Assembly (NCBI GenBank): GCA_947455865.1
Contig: CANGQZ010000010.1
Span: 1 to 32,911, forward strand
DNA length: 32,911 nucleotides
Source of the DNA: Sphingomonadaceae bacterium
Lineage (GTDB): Bacteria; Pseudomonadota; Alphaproteobacteria; Sphingomonadales; Sphingomonadaceae
Direction of reading: 5' to 3'
Below, piece after piece: positions 26,692-32,911 of this stretch; position 1 is the stretch's first letter, and every line of letters begins with the position of its first letter. The notes under the pieces were generated by a model that was not told the DNA's origin, made no database searches, and saw only the letters and a program-made list of their open reading frames with translations. Made by a program: the position numbers and the translations under genes.

Positions 26692-27372
26692 TCAGCCGGT
26701 CAAAGAATCGCCGACGCCGACCATCTTGCCCCGCGTGATGTAGACCGGCGTACCGAGCTTCGTGATGCCGAACAGCTTCTTCGCGAACGGGGCGGGCACA
26801 CCGACGCAGCCGTGGCTGGCATAGCCGTTCTCGACCGTGGTGGCGTGGATCGTGATCCCATCGTTGGTCAGGCGCATCATGTAGGGCATCGGCGCGCCGT
26901 CATAGATGTTGGATTTGTGATCGGCGTTCTTCTCGGTGATCGGGAACAGGCCGGTGGGAGTGGGCTTTTCCTGTGTGCCGAGCAGCACCGCGGTCGCCGC
27001 GATCTCATAGCCGCCGCGGAACACCGAGAGTACCCGCGCATCGAGATCGACCGTGATAACCAGCGGCCCGGCGGGCACGCCGGCCTCATCCCAGTGCCAA
27101 TCGCCATAACGGATCGGGCCATCGATCGGGAGGATGCGCTTGATGACGAAGCGCTCGTCCTTGGCCGGCGCGGCGCTGGGAGCGGGGGCAGGCGCGGCAG
27201 CGACCGGCGCGGCCGAGCCGACCATTTCGGGGGCAACCTCGATCGCCAACGCGGGATCGCTCGCCGCAGCAGCGGGCGGCGGCCCTTTGCCGGCGATCAG
27301 GCTCGCGCCAACCAGCCCCAGCCCGGCCGCCACCGCCACCAGTCCGATCCAGCCCCGGGTTCTCAACTGCAT
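26692..27372 (-). CDS. L,D-transpeptidase (YkuD domain)
   Basis: The product is about 226 aa from ATG 27372 with AGAGG five bases upstream; the track's GTG at 27393 is less likely. One N-terminal membrane helix or uncleaved signal (GWIGLVAVAAGLGLVGASLIA) is followed by an Ala/Pro-rich spacer. The YkuD domain runs from LVITVDLDARVLSVFRGGYEI through KPTPTGLFPI to the active-site ITIHATTVENGYASHGCVGVP, with the catalytic His and Cys in place. Such enzymes make 3-3 peptidoglycan cross-links or attach proteins to peptidoglycan, using periplasmic tetrapeptide donors. The specific role of this copy cannot be told. Confidence 0.92.
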   Translation of the reverse strand: MQLRTRGWIGLVAVAAGLGLVGASLIAGKGPPPAAAASDPALAIEVAPEMVGSAAPVAAAPAPAPSAAPAKDERFVIKRILPIDGPIRYGDWHWDEAGVPAGPLVITVDLDARVLSVFRGGYEIAATAVLLGTQEKPTPTGLFPITEKNADHKSNIYDGAPMPYMMRLTNDGITIHATTVENGYASHGCVGVPAPFAKKLFGITKLGTPVYITRGKMVGVGDSLTG

Positions 27373-27473
27373 AGCCGCCTCTTGTGACCTCACCGTGCCT
27401 TGTCGCGCAAGTGCCGGCGAGTCGCCAGCGGCGCGGCGGCGGCGTCCCGTGGCGGGACTTGGGGGCCGGCAAA

Positions 27474-27501
27474 GGTTAAGGGTTGGCGGTTAAGGGGTGG
27501 C
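27474..27501. repeat. 14-bp tandem duplication at the maoC 3' end
   Basis: GGTTAAGGGTTGGC is followed immediately by GGTTAAGGGGTGGC, two 14-base copies with one mismatch. The second copy contains the maoC stop codon (TTA on the plus strand at 27490-27492). It looks like a small slippage duplication in the gap between the L,D-transpeptidase start and maoC. Confidence 0.6.
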
Positions 27502-27972
27502 GGGGCGGCGGGCGAAAAGCCAGCGCCACTCACCCTCGATCACCACGTCGTCCGCCCCGCGCACGATGGTGTAGGCGAACGTCACCTTGCCCTGCGGCTT
27601 GACCGCGTGCGGGCGGACCTCGGTGACTTCCAGTTCAAGCCGGACGGTGTCACCGAATAGCACCGGCGCCTTATAGCGGATAGTCTGCTCGATGATCGCA
27701 AGGCCGGTGCCCGCTGAAAGGCCCAGCCGCTCCATCAGCCCGGAGGCGATGGCGATGGTGGCGAGCCCCGGCGGAAACGCGCCGCCGAACAGGCCATGCT
27801 TGGCGGCATAATCATAATCGACGTGCATCGGGTTCATATCGCCGCTGAACATCGCCCAGAACAAGCCATCCGCCGCAGTGACCGTGCGGCCCTGCGTGAC
27901 GATACGCTCACCGACGGTGAAATCCTCAAGGTAGCGGGCGGCAGGCCCGATATAGCGCGGTTGGACAGTCAT
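27490..27972 (-). CDS. MaoC family hydratase/dehydratase
   Basis: The protein is 160 aa, a single hot-dog fold. It has RYLEDFTVGERIVTQGRTVTAADGLFWAMFSGDMNPMHVDYDYAAKHGLFGGAFPPGLATIAIASGL; the D-x-N-P-x-H hydratase 2 motif (GDMNPMHVD) supplies the catalytic Asp/His. TIRYKAPVLFGDTVRLELEV is the second conserved half. MaoC-type enzymes hydrate enoyl-CoA esters; the chain specificity cannot be read here. AAAAAGGA lies about eight bases before the ATG. It borders the AT-rich accessory block, whose operon is transcribed toward it on the same strand, so a functional link is possible but not shown. Confidence 0.9.
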   Translation of the reverse strand: MTVQPRYIGPAARYLEDFTVGERIVTQGRTVTAADGLFWAMFSGDMNPMHVDYDYAAKHGLFGGAFPPGLATIAIASGLMERLGLSAGTGLAIIEQTIRYKAPVLFGDTVRLELEVTEVRPHAVKPQGKVTFAYTIVRGADDVVIEGEWRWLFARRPATP

Positions 27973-28084
27973 GCGCGGCGTCCTTTTTCCCGTGACAGCG
28001 CCGGGGTTGCCCGTCGCAGGCAGGTTAGCGCAGTCACAGTGACAAGTGCAATTTTATTGCAATCGATTAATCATACAGATGATG

Positions 28085-28103
28085 CCGCCATATTTAATGG
28101 CGG
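28085..28103. repeat. Hairpin with AT-rich flank downstream of the accessory operon
   Basis: CCGCCAT and ATGGCGG are 7-bp perfect arms around ATTTA, followed on the plus strand by AAAAATTTTAATTT. It lies between maoC and the accessory operon. On the minus strand, where the operon would need to stop, no T-run follows, so it is at best a weak or rightward terminator. Confidence 0.45.
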
Positions 28104-28173
28104 AAAAATTTTAATTTATCAATTCGAGTCAATCTCATGATTCACTACCGACGTTTTATTTCGATGCTTTGGT

Positions 28174-28190
28174 GCAATAATAATTATTGC
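28174..28190. repeat. 17-bp near-perfect palindrome GCAATAATAATTATTGC
   Basis: The arms are perfect 8-mers around a single central A. It lies 21 bases beyond the stop of the small helical protein gene in AT-rich DNA. Symmetry of this sort is typical of a dimeric-repressor site, but the position after a gene end also allows a transcript-end hairpin. No regulator is identified. Confidence 0.5.
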
Positions 28191-28211
28191 CGCCTAATGA
28201 GATACTGCAAA

Positions 28212-28697
28212 TTACATATTGTCTGTAGAGTCGAAGCCATAGCCATAAAACAATTCGCGTTCACGCCCTGATTGAGCCTGTTCGAAAGCCAGTCCGGTGC
28301 GGACGGCGTATGAGGTGAATTCGGCGCGGCCGTCTTCGCTGGCCGCGTCGATCAAATGGCACACAGCGGCACTTAAGCTCGCAATTACATCACGTGACGG
28401 TACGTATCGGTCACTTCCACCGAGTACAGCCTTGAGCGCGGTTGCGGCCGACATCGTGGCGGCGCCACCATCGGCTTGGGCCGCCAAACCGGAACCAAGC
28501 TCGAAAATGGCGGCTTGATCAGTTGCCATCAATGGGCCGAGCTTGTCCAACTGGCCGGAGACGATCTTAAGGTGGCCAATGCTCAGTTGCGTCAGTTCTA
28601 TTGCCAGCTTGGCTTGTTCCGGCAAACTAGGGATTATGACCGCCTCCAGGGCCCGGGCGATGCTATCCAGCCGCTCTTCAACCGTGGGCAGGATCAT
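28212..28697 (-). CDS. Hypothetical helical protein paired with the APH-like kinase
   Basis: The protein is 161 aa, nearly all predicted helix: MILPTVEERLDSIARALEAVIIPSLPEQAKLAIELTQLSIGHLKIVSGQLDKLGPLMATDQ, then an Ala-rich middle and DVIASLSAAVCHLIDAASEDGRAEFTSYAVRTGLAFEQAQSGRERELFYGYGFD. No signal peptide and no motif I recognise. The ATG overlaps the kinase stop by ATGA, so it is made together with that enzyme and may be its partner or an accessory subunit. It is the last gene of the leftward accessory operon. Confidence 0.75.
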   Translation of the reverse strand: MILPTVEERLDSIARALEAVIIPSLPEQAKLAIELTQLSIGHLKIVSGQLDKLGPLMATDQAAIFELGSGLAAQADGGAATMSAATALKAVLGGSDRYVPSRDVIASLSAAVCHLIDAASEDGRAEFTSYAVRTGLAFEQAQSGRERELFYGYGFDSTDNM

Positions 28698-29866
28698 AAT
28701 TCCTCCAGCAGCAATCGAGTCAACTCAGATGCAAACATCGGAGTCGTAGCACCCATGTAAGTAAGCATTACATCTTGATGGCTGTGTTTACGCCGCGCCA
28801 CGGATAATCCGCTTGCAGCAACGACGATATAGGTTTTGAGCACAGCCAGTATCTCATAGAAACGAAGCGTTGCACGGTTTACTATCCTACCACTCGCCTC
28901 TTCATAAGCCACAATGAAATCTTCACGTTCATACAAGTCAACAGCAAAGAACTTTTTGTCCTCAAATACACCAAATAGGCGCATTAAAATCCAAGCTAAA
29001 TCTTCATGATAGTCACCAATTCGCGCCAGCTCCCAATCAAGGATAGCTGTTATTTCCGCACGATTCTCATCAAAGAGATAGTTCCCCGTCCTGTAGTCAC
29101 CGTGCGTAAACACTAAATCGCTGCAGGCGGGCAGCTTTTTTTCCAACCATCGCCAAGCGATGGTAACAACTGGTCGTTCCTCGATCTTGTCCAGCCGCCA
29201 TATCGCATCCCAGAAACCGATTGACCAGCGCGCGGCCTGATAAGGATCGCTATCCGGAACGTCGAAGCCGGGAAGGGGCAGCGACCGCCAATCGTAAGCG
29301 TGAATCGCCACAAGATATGTCATGAATTGACGCTTCATCCGGCTGCGAAGCGGCTCGCCCAGGCGTGTTCCAAGCCCCGAAACACGATCTTGCGAAACCG
29401 ATGGCTTGGTCACCCCACTGACAAAACGGGTAATCATTGCCGGCCGATTGAAATACGCCCCTGCGTGATCCAGCAAAACAGGCTCTGGTACCGGCACCCG
29501 CCCCTGCATCGCCGTCAATGCGGCAAATTCGCGCCGGCAATCAGTTTCGATGATCGGGCTTTTCGGATCGGTCCGTAGAACATAACGGCAAGATTTTTCG
29601 CCCCCGCCAGCCTCTGCGCGGTGATGCCAGTCGAACAGGAACTGCTCTTTGGACGCGCCGCCGCCCAGCCGGTTTACCGAACCAATCCGACCCTGCCACC
29701 CTTCGGCCACCAACATCCGCTCTAGGCAGACCGTTACATCGGCAACCGAAGCTAGTTGATATGGGGGTAAGGCCTGCGCGACCCGCCGACGTTCGACAAG
29801 ACCTGCCCAAGCCGGCTCCATATCGAACTGCCGCCGCAAGATTGCCGTCGGTTCAACTCTATTCAT
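28694..29866 (-). CDS. APH-fold phosphotransferase family protein (ACAD10/11-kinase-like)
   Basis: The protein is 390 aa. The N-lobe has VNRLGGGASKEQFLFDWH (nucleotide loop) and YVLRTDPKSP with REFAALTAMQGRVPVPEPVLLD. The C-lobe has the catalytic loop LVFTHGDYRTGNYLFD (HGDxxxxN) and metal-binding AILDWELARIGDYHEDLAWI. This is the choline/aminoglycoside-kinase superfamily, in the branch that includes the kinase part of ACAD10/11-type proteins, which act on hydroxy-acyl substrates, rather than typical resistance enzymes. The substrate is unknown. It starts nine bases after the CrtC/AttH-like gene and overlaps the helical protein. Codons are AT-richer than the chromosome around it. Confidence 0.85.
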   Translation of the reverse strand: MNRVEPTAILRRQFDMEPAWAGLVERRRVAQALPPYQLASVADVTVCLERMLVAEGWQGRIGSVNRLGGGASKEQFLFDWHHRAEAGGGEKSCRYVLRTDPKSPIIETDCRREFAALTAMQGRVPVPEPVLLDHAGAYFNRPAMITRFVSGVTKPSVSQDRVSGLGTRLGEPLRSRMKRQFMTYLVAIHAYDWRSLPLPGFDVPDSDPYQAARWSIGFWDAIWRLDKIEERPVVTIAWRWLEKKLPACSDLVFTHGDYRTGNYLFDENRAEITAILDWELARIGDYHEDLAWILMRLFGVFEDKKFFAVDLYEREDFIVAYEEASGRIVNRATLRFYEILAVLKTYIVVAASGLSVARRKHSHQDVMLTYMGATTPMFASELTRLLLEEL

Positions 29867-29875
29867 CAGAGTGTA

Positions 29876-30835
29876 TCACACGCGCACGTGGTTAGTCGGC
29901 CAGGCATCGAAATAGATGCCGTAACCGGGCTCGCTCAAATCGGGGCTCCACCACTTGGCCATTGCTAAGGCAGATGCACAGTTGCCATAAAGCTGCCAAG
30001 GATGATTGCAAACCATTGATCCTCGGATAATATGTTTCAGGTCGTCAACATCGATAAACTCTATTTCCGAGTAAATTGGCCATATGCCATTACGAATTGT
30101 GCGAACTGATCCGCCCTTCAGTCCGCGAACTCGGCCGTTTAACAATGCATATCCATGACGAAAGGTATGCTGTTCACCAATTTTTGCGTTTTGGTCGAAA
30201 TGAAATATCGAATGTATAACATAATCTTTGCTAAAATGCGCATTGATCCATGCCATCGGATGGTAATCATTCTCCCATCGCTCTCCCCAACTATGGTCCA
30301 TCGTCGAGATGCAGTCGATGGGGTAGTCAACTCCATTGATCGTTAGAGTTCCAGTAGCATGAACGCTCATGTCAAAATGGGACGCGTAAGCGGATCCAAA
30401 GCCGGAGTTTTGAATTGCGGTTGCCGCATCGATCGCGGCCATCGGATCCATTTCGGGGTCATGGATATCGTATGGAGGCATAAGCGCGTTCATGCGGACA
30501 TCGATCTGGACGCCGGACGAATCATATTTCAAGTGGTAGGCCGAAAGCGACAGCGCCTCGTAGGAGAGCCCTCCCGGCAAAGAAAAGCGGGACGCTTTCA
30601 CCGGGATCGGATTGTAATTAGTCACGTCAGAAAATAGGCAATCCTGAAACGAATCCGACCAACGATCTATGATCTCAACATGATATTCTGTTGCCCCTAC
30701 TCCTGCGCGATGGACGTAGTATATCCAAGCAAGGGTATTGTGTTCGGGAATGTAGAAAAAGAAGTATCCTGTTTCTGCCCAGCTGTGAGAAGGATTGGCA
30801 GGAGTATGGAACTCTATATCACGGTCAGATATCAT
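29876..30835 (-). CDS. CrtC/AttH-like (DUF7064/DUF7065-type) protein
   Basis: The protein is 319 aa with no signal peptide. The N-terminal half has SHSWAETGYFFFYIPEHNTLAWIYYVHRAGVG and the C-terminal half DYPIDCISTMDHSWGERWEND...MAWINAHFSKDYVIHSIFHF. The paired beta-barrel layout with D-H-S-W-G recalls the AttH / hydroxyneurosporene-synthase (carotenoid hydratase CrtC) superfamily and what I recall as DUF7064/DUF7065 proteins. Enzymatic or lipid-binding function is not established for this branch. GTGAGG lies a few bases before the ATG. It is the first gene of the leftward accessory operon, divergent from an AraC regulator. Codon use is clearly AT-richer than the flanks. Confidence 0.6.
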   Translation of the reverse strand: MISDRDIEFHTPANPSHSWAETGYFFFYIPEHNTLAWIYYVHRAGVGATEYHVEIIDRWSDSFQDCLFSDVTNYNPIPVKASRFSLPGGLSYEALSLSAYHLKYDSSGVQIDVRMNALMPPYDIHDPEMDPMAAIDAATAIQNSGFGSAYASHFDMSVHATGTLTINGVDYPIDCISTMDHSWGERWENDYHPMAWINAHFSKDYVIHSIFHFDQNAKIGEQHTFRHGYALLNGRVRGLKGGSVRTIRNGIWPIYSEIEFIDVDDLKHIIRGSMVCNHPWQLYGNCASALAMAKWWSPDLSEPGYGIYFDAWPTNHVRV

Positions 30836-31009
30836 TTTGCCTCACCCAGCAATAAGTGGCTGCAGGCTCAGCTCGCCAGGCAGCCCACACCTACATCAAA
30901 TGTAGGCATATCGGGGGGGCTTGCGCGGCGCTTTCGGATTTTTGCGAGTCTATCCAAATCTTGCTACCTTCCCAGAATAATGTCCGTGCGGTCACGGGGA
31001 AGGGAGAGG
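30836..31009. promoter_or_regulatory. Divergent control region with operator-like palindrome CCTACAT-caa-ATGTAGG
   Basis: If the AraC gene starts near 31015, about 175 bases separate it from the divergent operon. They contain a perfect 7-bp inverted repeat at 30890-30906 (CCTACAT, CAA, ATGTAGG). GTAGGCAT occurs at the right arm (30903-30910) and again at 31010-31017 next to the AraC ribosome site. This is a plausible site for the AraC protein or another regulator; binding is inferred. Confidence 0.45.
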
Positions 31010-31878
31010 TAGGCATTACATTACCGGCACTTGATGGCGTCCGCGCGCTTTCGTCTGCCACGCACACGGAGCCGCTGGCGCGCGCCAAACACGCCGATAC
31101 AGATATCTGCACTTGGGCCATCGGGCCGGACTCTTATGAGCACGAAGCAGTTCCGGATATTCTGATCGGCTTGCTGACCGACGGAGACGTCGCTTGGCGC
31201 TCTGCTGCGCTCGGCAGGCACGGGATCTTCAGGCATGGTTTTGCTGCCGTAATCCCGGCAGGCACTCGCCTGCGCATGGCGCCTGCCAGGCCGTTGACCG
31301 CCACGACCCTCCATATCTCGCCAGAGCGAGCCAATTGCATTTTCGCGATTGATGATGGTAGCCGCCTCCTGACGCAGGCTTCGCTTCGGATCGGGTGGAA
31401 TAATCCTCTGGTCAGCTCGAGCCTTGCTGCCTTGGCCGATGAAATTCGCCAACCGAGCATGAAAGGGTCGCTGTTTCTTGATTCTGTTATTGCGCTGGTG
31501 CTTCATCAAGCACTCTACGCACCTAGCGGGGATGGCGACCTCGCCGAGCAAAGGCGGCTTTCTGCAACAACCTTGCGCCTTATCGAAAATCATGTGCGCG
31601 ACCGGCTGGATGAACCTATAGGACTGCAGGATCTTTCACAGATGGCGGGCCTCAGCCAGTTCCATTTCAGCAAAGTGTTCAAAGCACAAACGGGACTTAC
31701 CCCGCATCAATATGTGGTCAGAGAGCGCATCGCGAGAGCCAAGACGTTATTGAGTGACCGGCAGCGGTCGATCACGGAGATCGCCCTCGCCGTAGGATTC
31801 TCCAGCCATTCCCACTTTTCGTCAGTGTTCAGGGCATACGTCGGTGTACCTCCACGGACGTTCCGGCAATCACGATGA
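30856..31878 (+). CDS. AraC family transcriptional regulator
   Basis: The last about 100 residues form two AraC helix-turn-helix motifs: IGLQDLSQMAGLSQFHFSKVFKAQTGLTPHQYVVRERIARAKTLL and SITEIALAVGFSSHSHFSSVFRAYVGVPPRTFRQ. The N-terminal domain (ALDGVRALSSATHTEPLARAKH...FAAVIPAGTRLRMAPARPL) is probably the effector-sensing barrel. The coordinates give the open frame from the first GTG, which has no ribosome site and leaves only 20 bases to the divergent gene. A strong GGGAAGGGAGAGG is followed five bases later by an in-frame ATT at 31015, and recognisable protein begins there. I think that is the real start. It likely controls the divergent operon. Confidence 0.88.
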   Translation: MAAGSARQAAHTYIKCRHIGGACAALSDFCESIQILLPSQNNVRAVTGKGEVGITLPALDGVRALSSATHTEPLARAKHADTDICTWAIGPDSYEHEAVPDILIGLLTDGDVAWRSAALGRHGIFRHGFAAVIPAGTRLRMAPARPLTATTLHISPERANCIFAIDDGSRLLTQASLRIGWNNPLVSSSLAALADEIRQPSMKGSLFLDSVIALVLHQALYAPSGDGDLAEQRRLSATTLRLIENHVRDRLDEPIGLQDLSQMAGLSQFHFSKVFKAQTGLTPHQYVVRERIARAKTLLSDRQRSITEIALAVGFSSHSHFSSVFRAYVGVPPRTFRQSR

Positions 31879-31999
31879 TCAAGCGGGTAACCGGCGGTTT
31901 TCGGCTCTATGCCACGCCGTCATGCAAACTGCGGTGATGCAGAATTCAGGCTTTCGATGGCTTGTAACCCAAACATCAGAAAATGGGCGCGGATCGACC

Positions 32000-32911
32000 C
32001 TACCCATGCGCCCCGAACTCATTGGCAATCGCCGTTGTGATGCGCAGCATCAGGCCATACGTCCGCTCGATCCGGTCGATGTAGTCGGTCTGGATCTGGG
32101 TGTAGCCGGTGGCGGCGCCGTCGGGGTAGTCGCTGGGTTCGTCGACCGAGAAATCGCCCACTGCCGGGAAGCTGGTGGGGAAGGCGCGGCGGAGCTGTTT
32201 GAGGGCGTCGTCGATCCTGAGGGTGAAGACCATTTCGAGGACGTCTTCGCGGCTGATGTCGTTCGCGCGGCTGAAGGCGGGGATCATCACCGCGCGCAGG
32301 AACATGTGCTGGAACAGCGCCAGCCGGATCGCCTGGAGCACGCCCATCGCCCGGCGCATGTGCTCGCGATCGGGCAGCGGGGCGGTATCGGGGAGGAGAT
32401 CCAAGAGGCGGTGGAGCTTCATTGCATCGACCCGCAGCCGCGAGGCGAGGCGGCGGAAGACGCCGGTGCGATCATCGACCGTGAGGTATTCGGCCAGCGC
32501 AAGGCAGGCCTGCGAAATGTGCTGTTCATCGCCGCGATAGGGCCGGCTGGCCCAGTAGGCCGAATTGAACAGTTCGCCGTGGGCCGCGACCGTCTTGATC
32601 GAGGCGAGCGCATTCGAGGCGCGCAGCAGGCGCACCATCTGGCGCCCGCGCTCGCTGCCGGCGAGGAGCGCGGCGAGTTCCTCGATATTGCCATCGGCCG
32701 CGGTGCCGAACCCGGCGATGACGTTGACCGGGTAGCCGAGCTGCTGGAGGATCGCGTTGTGCGGGATCGCGCGGATCTGGCGCAGGCTGAGCTGGCGATC
32801 GGCGGCTAGGTCTGACTGGCGGCGGGCCTTGCGGCTGCCGGTATCGTTGAGCAGGCCGAGCCCGAACGCGGTGACCGCGCGCGAATAGGTCGCACTGTTG
32901 AGGTGCTGCTG
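32000..32911 (-). CDS. Phosphoenolpyruvate carboxylase-like protein, C-terminal part (runs off the right edge)
   Basis: The frame stays open from the TAG at 32000 to the window end, 303 codons; the track shows only the part after an internal ATG. The visible portion starts QQHLNSATYSRAVTAFGLGLLNDTGSRKARRQSD, then LRQIRAIPHNAILQQLGYPVNVIAGFGTA, a segment typical of the alphaproteobacterial COG2352 proteins annotated as phosphoenolpyruvate carboxylase. The remainder is helical (SNALASIKTVAAHGELFNSAYW; LFQHMFLRAVMIPAF). The PEPC catalytic motifs lie N-terminal, outside the window, so activity cannot be judged. This lineage differs much from E. coli Ppc and may have another role. Codon use returns to the GC-rich norm. 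Confidence 0.7.
   Translation of the reverse strand, partial: QQHLNSATYSRAVTAFGLGLLNDTGSRKARRQSDLAADRQLSLRQIRAIPHNAILQQLGYPVNVIAGFGTAADGNIEELAALLAGSERGRQMVRLLRASNALASIKTVAAHGELFNSAYWASRPYRGDEQHISQACLALAEYLTVDDRTGVFRRLASRLRVDAMKLHRLLDLLPDTAPLPDREHMRRAMGVLQAIRLALFQHMFLRAVMIPAFSRANDISREDVLEMVFTLRIDDALKQLRRAFPTSFPAVGDFSVDEPSDYPDGAATGYTQIQTDYIDRIERTYGLMLRITTAIANEFGAHG

Follow-up and report, generated by a model that had tools for sequence, protein, structure and literature searches.

Which reaction could be served by three tightly packed genes that encode an AttH-fold protein, an APH-fold kinase and a small helical protein in a member of Sphingomonadaceae? We addressed this question for a stretch of 32,911 nucleotides (henceforth: the window), which is contig C10 of a draft genome (2.77 Mb, 257 contigs, 87% complete). 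A preliminary description made from the letters of the window had suggested phosphorylation and hydration or dehydration of a hydrophobic substrate. We retain the general idea and replace hydration by elimination of phosphate, based on the profile and fold similarity of the first protein to 25-phosphosteroid lyase (25-PSL). In our judgement the three genes probably form an ATP-dependent dehydration module, in which a hydrophobic alcohol is phosphorylated by the kinase together with its partner and then loses the phosphate through the action of the lyase. A hydrophobic molecule with an unreactive hydroxyl would receive the gamma-phosphate of ATP at that hydroxyl from the kinase (gene 2), which the helical protein encoded by gene 3 would hold or activate, and the AttH-fold protein (gene 1) would eliminate the phosphate to generate a C=C bond, available to later oxidation or beta-oxidation. 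These enzymatic activities are what we infer for genes 1–3 themselves. Our best guess for the substrate is a tertiary or branched terpenoid or steroid alcohol, either in free form or bound as a CoA ester; both a free terpenoid/steroid alcohol and a hydroxyacyl-CoA are possible. Precedents for ATP-driven dehydration are the steroid pathway and the repair of NAD(P)H in its hydrated form (PMC8449060).

Organization and origin of the locus

All three genes are intact and encoded on the minus strand: gene 1 (positions 29876–30835, 319 aa), gene 2 (28694–29866, 390 aa) and gene 3 (28212–28697, 161 aa). The 9-base spacing between genes 1 and 2 (29867–29875) and the 4-base overlap between genes 2 and 3 (28694–28697), both given in the preliminary description, are exact according to the coordinates of the open reading frames, and the co-production predicted from them is supported. 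Shine-Dalgarno-like sequences precede gene 1 (GGTGAGGCAAA-ATG) and gene 3 (GGAGGAATT-ATG). Pfam assigns gene 1 to DUF7065 (2e-7) and gene 2 to the APH family (PF01636, 4e-28), and finds no match for gene 3. Upstream of the operon and divergent from it we found a gene absent from the earlier account, which encodes an AraC-family protein (about 30982–31878, plus strand, Pfam HTH_18 2e-24; its start is uncertain, with a GTG at about 30982 and the longest reading frame running from 30856). This protein is likely to regulate the operon.

The GC3 of genes 1–3 and the AraC-family gene is 0.52–0.62 (0.62 in the latter), as compared with 0.81–0.88 in the flanking genes. The neighbors of the cassette, identified by eye, are an L,D-transpeptidase-like gene on the left (26692–27393) and a PEP-carboxylase-like gene on the right (32000–32911). 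They lie about 100–460 bp apart in three congeneric genomes (L141, L144, L146), whereas in the window they are 4.6 kb apart (27394–31999), and the segment between them is therefore regarded as an insertion, most likely acquired horizontally. The AraC-family gene is likely to belong to the same imported segment. The next gene in the direction of the operon encodes a MaoC-domain protein (27490–27972, minus strand, Pfam MaoC 1.5e-18), as previously reported, but its membership in the module is unsupported: it is separated from gene 3 by an AT-rich gap of 239 bp (27973–28211, GC 0.435), in which no terminator-like site was scored, and no other module that we mapped has an adjacent MaoC gene. Since its GC3 (0.81) resembles that of the backbone, even though it is situated within the inserted 4.6-kb interval, the MaoC gene may have a different origin from the cassette.

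The AttH-fold protein as a putative phospho-lyase

Gene 1 encodes a DUF7065 protein (DUF7064/DUF7065 family) with the AttH fold. The profile of its family, compared with the PDB, matched the structures of 25-PSL (9fzn, E = 3.2e-14; 9g2i, E = 3e-14; 9g4c, E = 2e-12) and only weakly AttH (2ich). Because the window sequence of gene 1 on its own found no PDB match at E <= 1, we classify it as a superfamily member rather than as 25-PSL itself. The AlphaFold2 model of gene 1 (mean pLDDT 92), used as a Foldseek query against the PDB, identified 25-PSL in the five best matches (E = 8.7e-12, TM-score 0.68, 13% identity), followed by kievitone hydratase, the pericyclases Phm7 and Fsa2, and AttH; the top entry contains the lyase with phosphate and desmost-1,4-diene-3-one. 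Judged by profile and model, gene 1 is best placed with 25-PSL at the superfamily level, as a putative phospho-lyase, and the fold alone leaves the reaction unfixed, because hydratases (kievitone hydratase) and pericyclases (Phm7, Fsa2) share it.

The sequence around the proposed active site of gene 1 reads D180-H-S-W-G-E-R186 (DHSWG at residues 180–184). In an alignment of 36 relatives D180 is the sole invariant column and G184 and R186 are nearly invariant, while the His residue following D180 varies among the relatives, with R, K, V, L or I in its place. When the two lyase structures 9g4c and 9fzn are compared in the alignment, they differ by a D to N substitution exactly at the position of D180. 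The former structure contains phosphate together with desmost-1,4-diene-3-one, the alkene product, and we take its Asn to mark a designed inactive variant. In the proposed mechanism Asp180 would be the key catalytic residue of gene 1, with Arg186 perhaps holding the phosphate. The PDB entries that carry the name 25-PSL became public in January 2026, and our literature search for DUF7064/7065, DUF6285, 9FSG and a dedicated 25-PSL paper returned only the steroid papers.

Gene 1 had been described as a DHSWG-type CrtC/AttH barrel. The motif and the AttH fold hold, and the CrtC type gives way to the 25-PSL superfamily. A CrtC/AttH-type hydratase accompanied by a separate kinase, in which gene 1 would hydrate a double bond and the kinase would phosphorylate the new hydroxyl, would explain the fold common to gene 1, AttH and kievitone hydratase, and the essential His-x-Trp motif of carotenoid 1,2-hydratase CrtC (PMC4717167) resembles H181-x-W183. 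However, it is D180 and not the replaceable His that is invariant, gene 1 has no match to the CrtC Pfam family (PF07143), inspection of the sequence did not find the Tyr-x-Asp of CrtC at the expected spacing of about 27 residues past H181-x-W183 (H181+27 is H208), and 25-PSL scores above the hydratases in both sequence and fold. We thus regard hydration, the reaction of CrtC, as improbable for gene 1, and prefer elimination of phosphate.

Such a two-step reaction has been described in Sterolibacterium denitrificans, where 25-hydroxysteroid kinase (25-HSK) phosphorylates a 25-hydroxysteroid and a lyase then eliminates the phosphate (PMC8449060, PMC11061730); the lyase gene was not known in 2021 and was called "putative" in 2024. 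The two systems share an APH-like kinase and an AttH-fold lyase of the gene-1 superfamily, with the D of DxSWGxR kept. They differ in that S. denitrificans has no lyase candidate near the kinase gene (PMC8449060), while here both are encoded in one operon together with a helical protein; that 25-HSK is a monomer (PMC8449060), as opposed to the partner proposed here; and that gene 1 is a distant relative, at 13% identity. The linked cassette, with gene 3 as an undescribed kinase partner, would be a departure from the known cholesterol kinase/lyase pair.

A closer relative of 25-PSL (E = 2e-28) is the gene-1 family member at a locus in another genome (L053), also encoded beside a kinase and a gene-3 homolog; the same protein belongs to the Rv3169 family according to NCBIfam. 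The adjoining kinase has 9fsg as its best match, and we suspect from the length and the neighboring deposition codes that 9fsg, 9ft5 and 9fu5 are 25-hydroxysteroid kinase. Rv3168-Rv3169 of Mycobacterium tuberculosis is, by family membership, a candidate kinase/phospho-lyase pair, with the lyase at L053 as a member of the Rv3169 family that is clearly related to 25-PSL. Like the cassette, this pair consists of an adjacent APH-like kinase and gene-1-superfamily protein (NF053593) in an operon with a divergent regulator (PMC5340868). The regulator is of the TetR family there and of the AraC family here, the model of the Rv3169 family gives gene 1 a score of 20.7 bits, where the cut-off is 150, and a helical partner is not described in the mycobacterial operon.

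The kinase and its proposed helical partner

The catalytic core of gene 2 is intact (H255-G-D257...N262, D277-W-E), and H255, D257, N262 and D277 are invariant among its relatives. Its structural relatives are 9o56, 3dxp, 3ats (which we take to be Rv3168), 9fsg and ACAD11. The APH domain detected by Pfam could suggest an antibiotic-modifying kinase, which would inactivate a drug with the assistance of the other two genes. We consider this very improbable, as all the curated resistance models score gene 2 far below their cut-offs (the best one, APH(3'), 44 versus 205 bits), the nearest structures are metabolic kinases, and the source genome encodes 18 kinase paralogs, several of them within catabolic clusters. 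The earlier placement of gene 2 in the ACAD10/11-like branch rather than among drug-resistance enzymes is upheld: it groups with ACAD11, Rv3168 and comparable metabolic kinases. In a tree of 73 kinases gene 2 belongs to a fully supported clade of 23 members, 22 of which are associated with gene 3, and this clade stands apart from the one associated with DUF6285. The type of partner is strongly clustered on the tree, with 7 changes compared with a mean of 32 after shuffling.

The AlphaFold2 model of gene 3 (pLDDT 95) comprises five helices and matched no fold in the PDB. Profile matches to spidroin and cytochrome c' were weak, and we attribute them to chance similarity of helical bundles. Comparison of the gene-3 profile with DUF6285 by hhalign yielded a probability of 92 and a score of 45.1 over 64 N-terminal columns, whereas the highest of 60 column permutations scored 16.2 and the reversed profile 13. 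Direct membership in DUF6285 was rejected for lack of a Pfam match and remote homology was retained; on the profile evidence gene 3 is best described as a remote, longer relative of DUF6285, which itself has no match anywhere in the source genome. The preliminary description regarded gene 3 as an orphan helical protein tied to the kinase; helical and kinase-tied it is, but no longer an orphan.

All 25 DUF6285 loci have an adjoining kinase, and at five of them (L104, L107, L108, L112, L120) DUF6285 shares one stop-free frame with an APH-type kinase. Such natural fusions strongly suggest that DUF6285 acts as a subunit of these kinases. Triads of lyase, kinase and DUF6285 are present in seven genomes, and given these triads and the adjacent or fused kinases, the gene-3 and DUF6285 families occupy the same slot. 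We infer that gene 3 forms a complex with the kinase encoded by gene 2. LvaB, from the levulinate catabolism of Pseudomonas putida, is presumably a DUF6285 protein. It is a 12-kDa protein that binds the APH-like kinase LvaA, and the two are required together for phosphorylation of 4-hydroxyvaleryl-CoA (PMC6692424). The parallel lies in a small partner required for the activity of an APH-like kinase, and in the remote homology of gene 3 to DUF6285; the differences are that gene 3 is longer (161 versus about 120 aa) and falls outside the Pfam model, and that the next step of the Lva pathway is carried out by the acyl-CoA dehydrogenase LvaC, not by an AttH-fold lyase. ACAD10 and ACAD11 have a related kinase domain and likewise combine phosphorylation with subsequent elimination of phosphate, but in these enzymes a fused acyl-CoA dehydrogenase performs the elimination, and the substrates are 4-hydroxyacyl-CoAs (PMC11342911).

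These systems suggest another route, in which the kinase and its LvaB-like partner would phosphorylate an acyl-CoA with a hydroxyl at position 4 or elsewhere, to feed it into beta-oxidation, and gene 1 would take over the elimination of phosphate from the acyl-CoA dehydrogenase. With respect to chemistry this is a sub-case of ATP-driven dehydration; with respect to substrate it is a rival. It agrees with the occurrence of the DUF6285 partner family beside such kinases, with the reactions of LvaA-LvaB and of ACAD10/11 (PMC11342911, PMC12440821), and with the enoyl-CoA hydratase and AMP-ligase genes that adjoin several modules. On the other hand, the closest characterized relative of gene 1 uses a free steroid phosphoester, and no acyl-CoA dehydrogenase gene adjoins the module in the window. 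We therefore consider the acyl-CoA route a tenable but less probable alternative.

Linkage of the three families across genomes

We mapped relatives of genes 1 and 3 in 337 genomes of a single class (Alphaproteobacteria), in which ends of draft contigs may hide some neighbors. Because the profiles were built from relatives of the window genes, the counts that follow hold for this branch only, and the related genomes are not independent. Relatives of gene 1 were found in 40 of the 337 genomes and relatives of gene 3 in seven; kinases of the gene-2 type were mapped in 30 of the 40 genomes with gene-1 relatives. A kinase lies within 1.5 kb of a gene-1 family member at 32 of 65 places, as compared with 0.48 expected, in 20 of the 30 genomes. 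A kinase adjoins all of the 18 gene-3 matches except a marginal one (E = 9e-4). In 12 genomes we found about 16 loci with sets of all three families, and the gene order is shuffled among these loci; Novosphingobium colocasiae KCTC 32255, for instance, has a set of lyase, partner and kinase (L004). The source genome has ten gene-3 relatives adjoining kinases and at least ten places with members of the gene-1 superfamily. The linkage of the three families, raised earlier as a matter for a gene-neighborhood search, is thus conserved, far above chance and non-accidental. About half of the gene-1 family places have no adjoining kinase of the gene-2 type; at three loci (L069–L071, in genomes G246, G355 and G445) two to four gene-1 relatives are arranged in tandem, about 1 kb apart, with no adjoining kinase.

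The sister modules are surrounded by genes for P450, desaturase-like proteins, ADH, ALDH, acyl-CoA ligase, enoyl-CoA hydratase, MmgE/PrpD and proteins of the size of TonB receptors, which indicates catabolism of a hydrophobic compound. An enoyl-CoA hydratase gene is found downstream of triads with gene 3 as well as of those with DUF6285. The window contains no catabolic neighbors of this kind.

With about even odds, in our estimate, the cassette represents a widespread and previously undescribed group of three-part ATP-dependent dehydratases, composed of an APH-like kinase, a DUF6285-related subunit and a lyase of the 25-PSL superfamily, which would have multiplied in Novosphingobium-like sphingomonads for catabolism of terpenoids or steroids and would have a two-part relative in Rv3168-Rv3169 of M. 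tuberculosis. If true, the reading of the cassette as a system for ATP-driven dehydration would provide a testable reaction for DUF7064/DUF7065 and the neighboring "aminoglycoside phosphotransferases", which are common families without an assigned function, as well as for the Rv3168-Rv3169 operon, and it would also account for a class of small kinase partners.

Several other arrangements were seen among the mapped loci. A single cluster in one genome (G029:C8; L041 and L042) combines five kinase/gene-3 pairs with three gene-1 relatives, surrounded by receptor-sized, acyl-CoA ligase, enoyl-CoA hydratase and old-yellow-enzyme genes. Genes of the Y_phosphatase3 family (PF13350) recur near kinase/lyase modules (L030:2713–3522 and L041:3290–4105), and their products might remove phosphate from dead-end phosphoesters. 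Finally, at L035 (9797–14528) a gene-1 relative and a kinase are accompanied by two genes that resemble, by eye, subunits of hydantoinase/oxoprolinase, a different catabolic setting.
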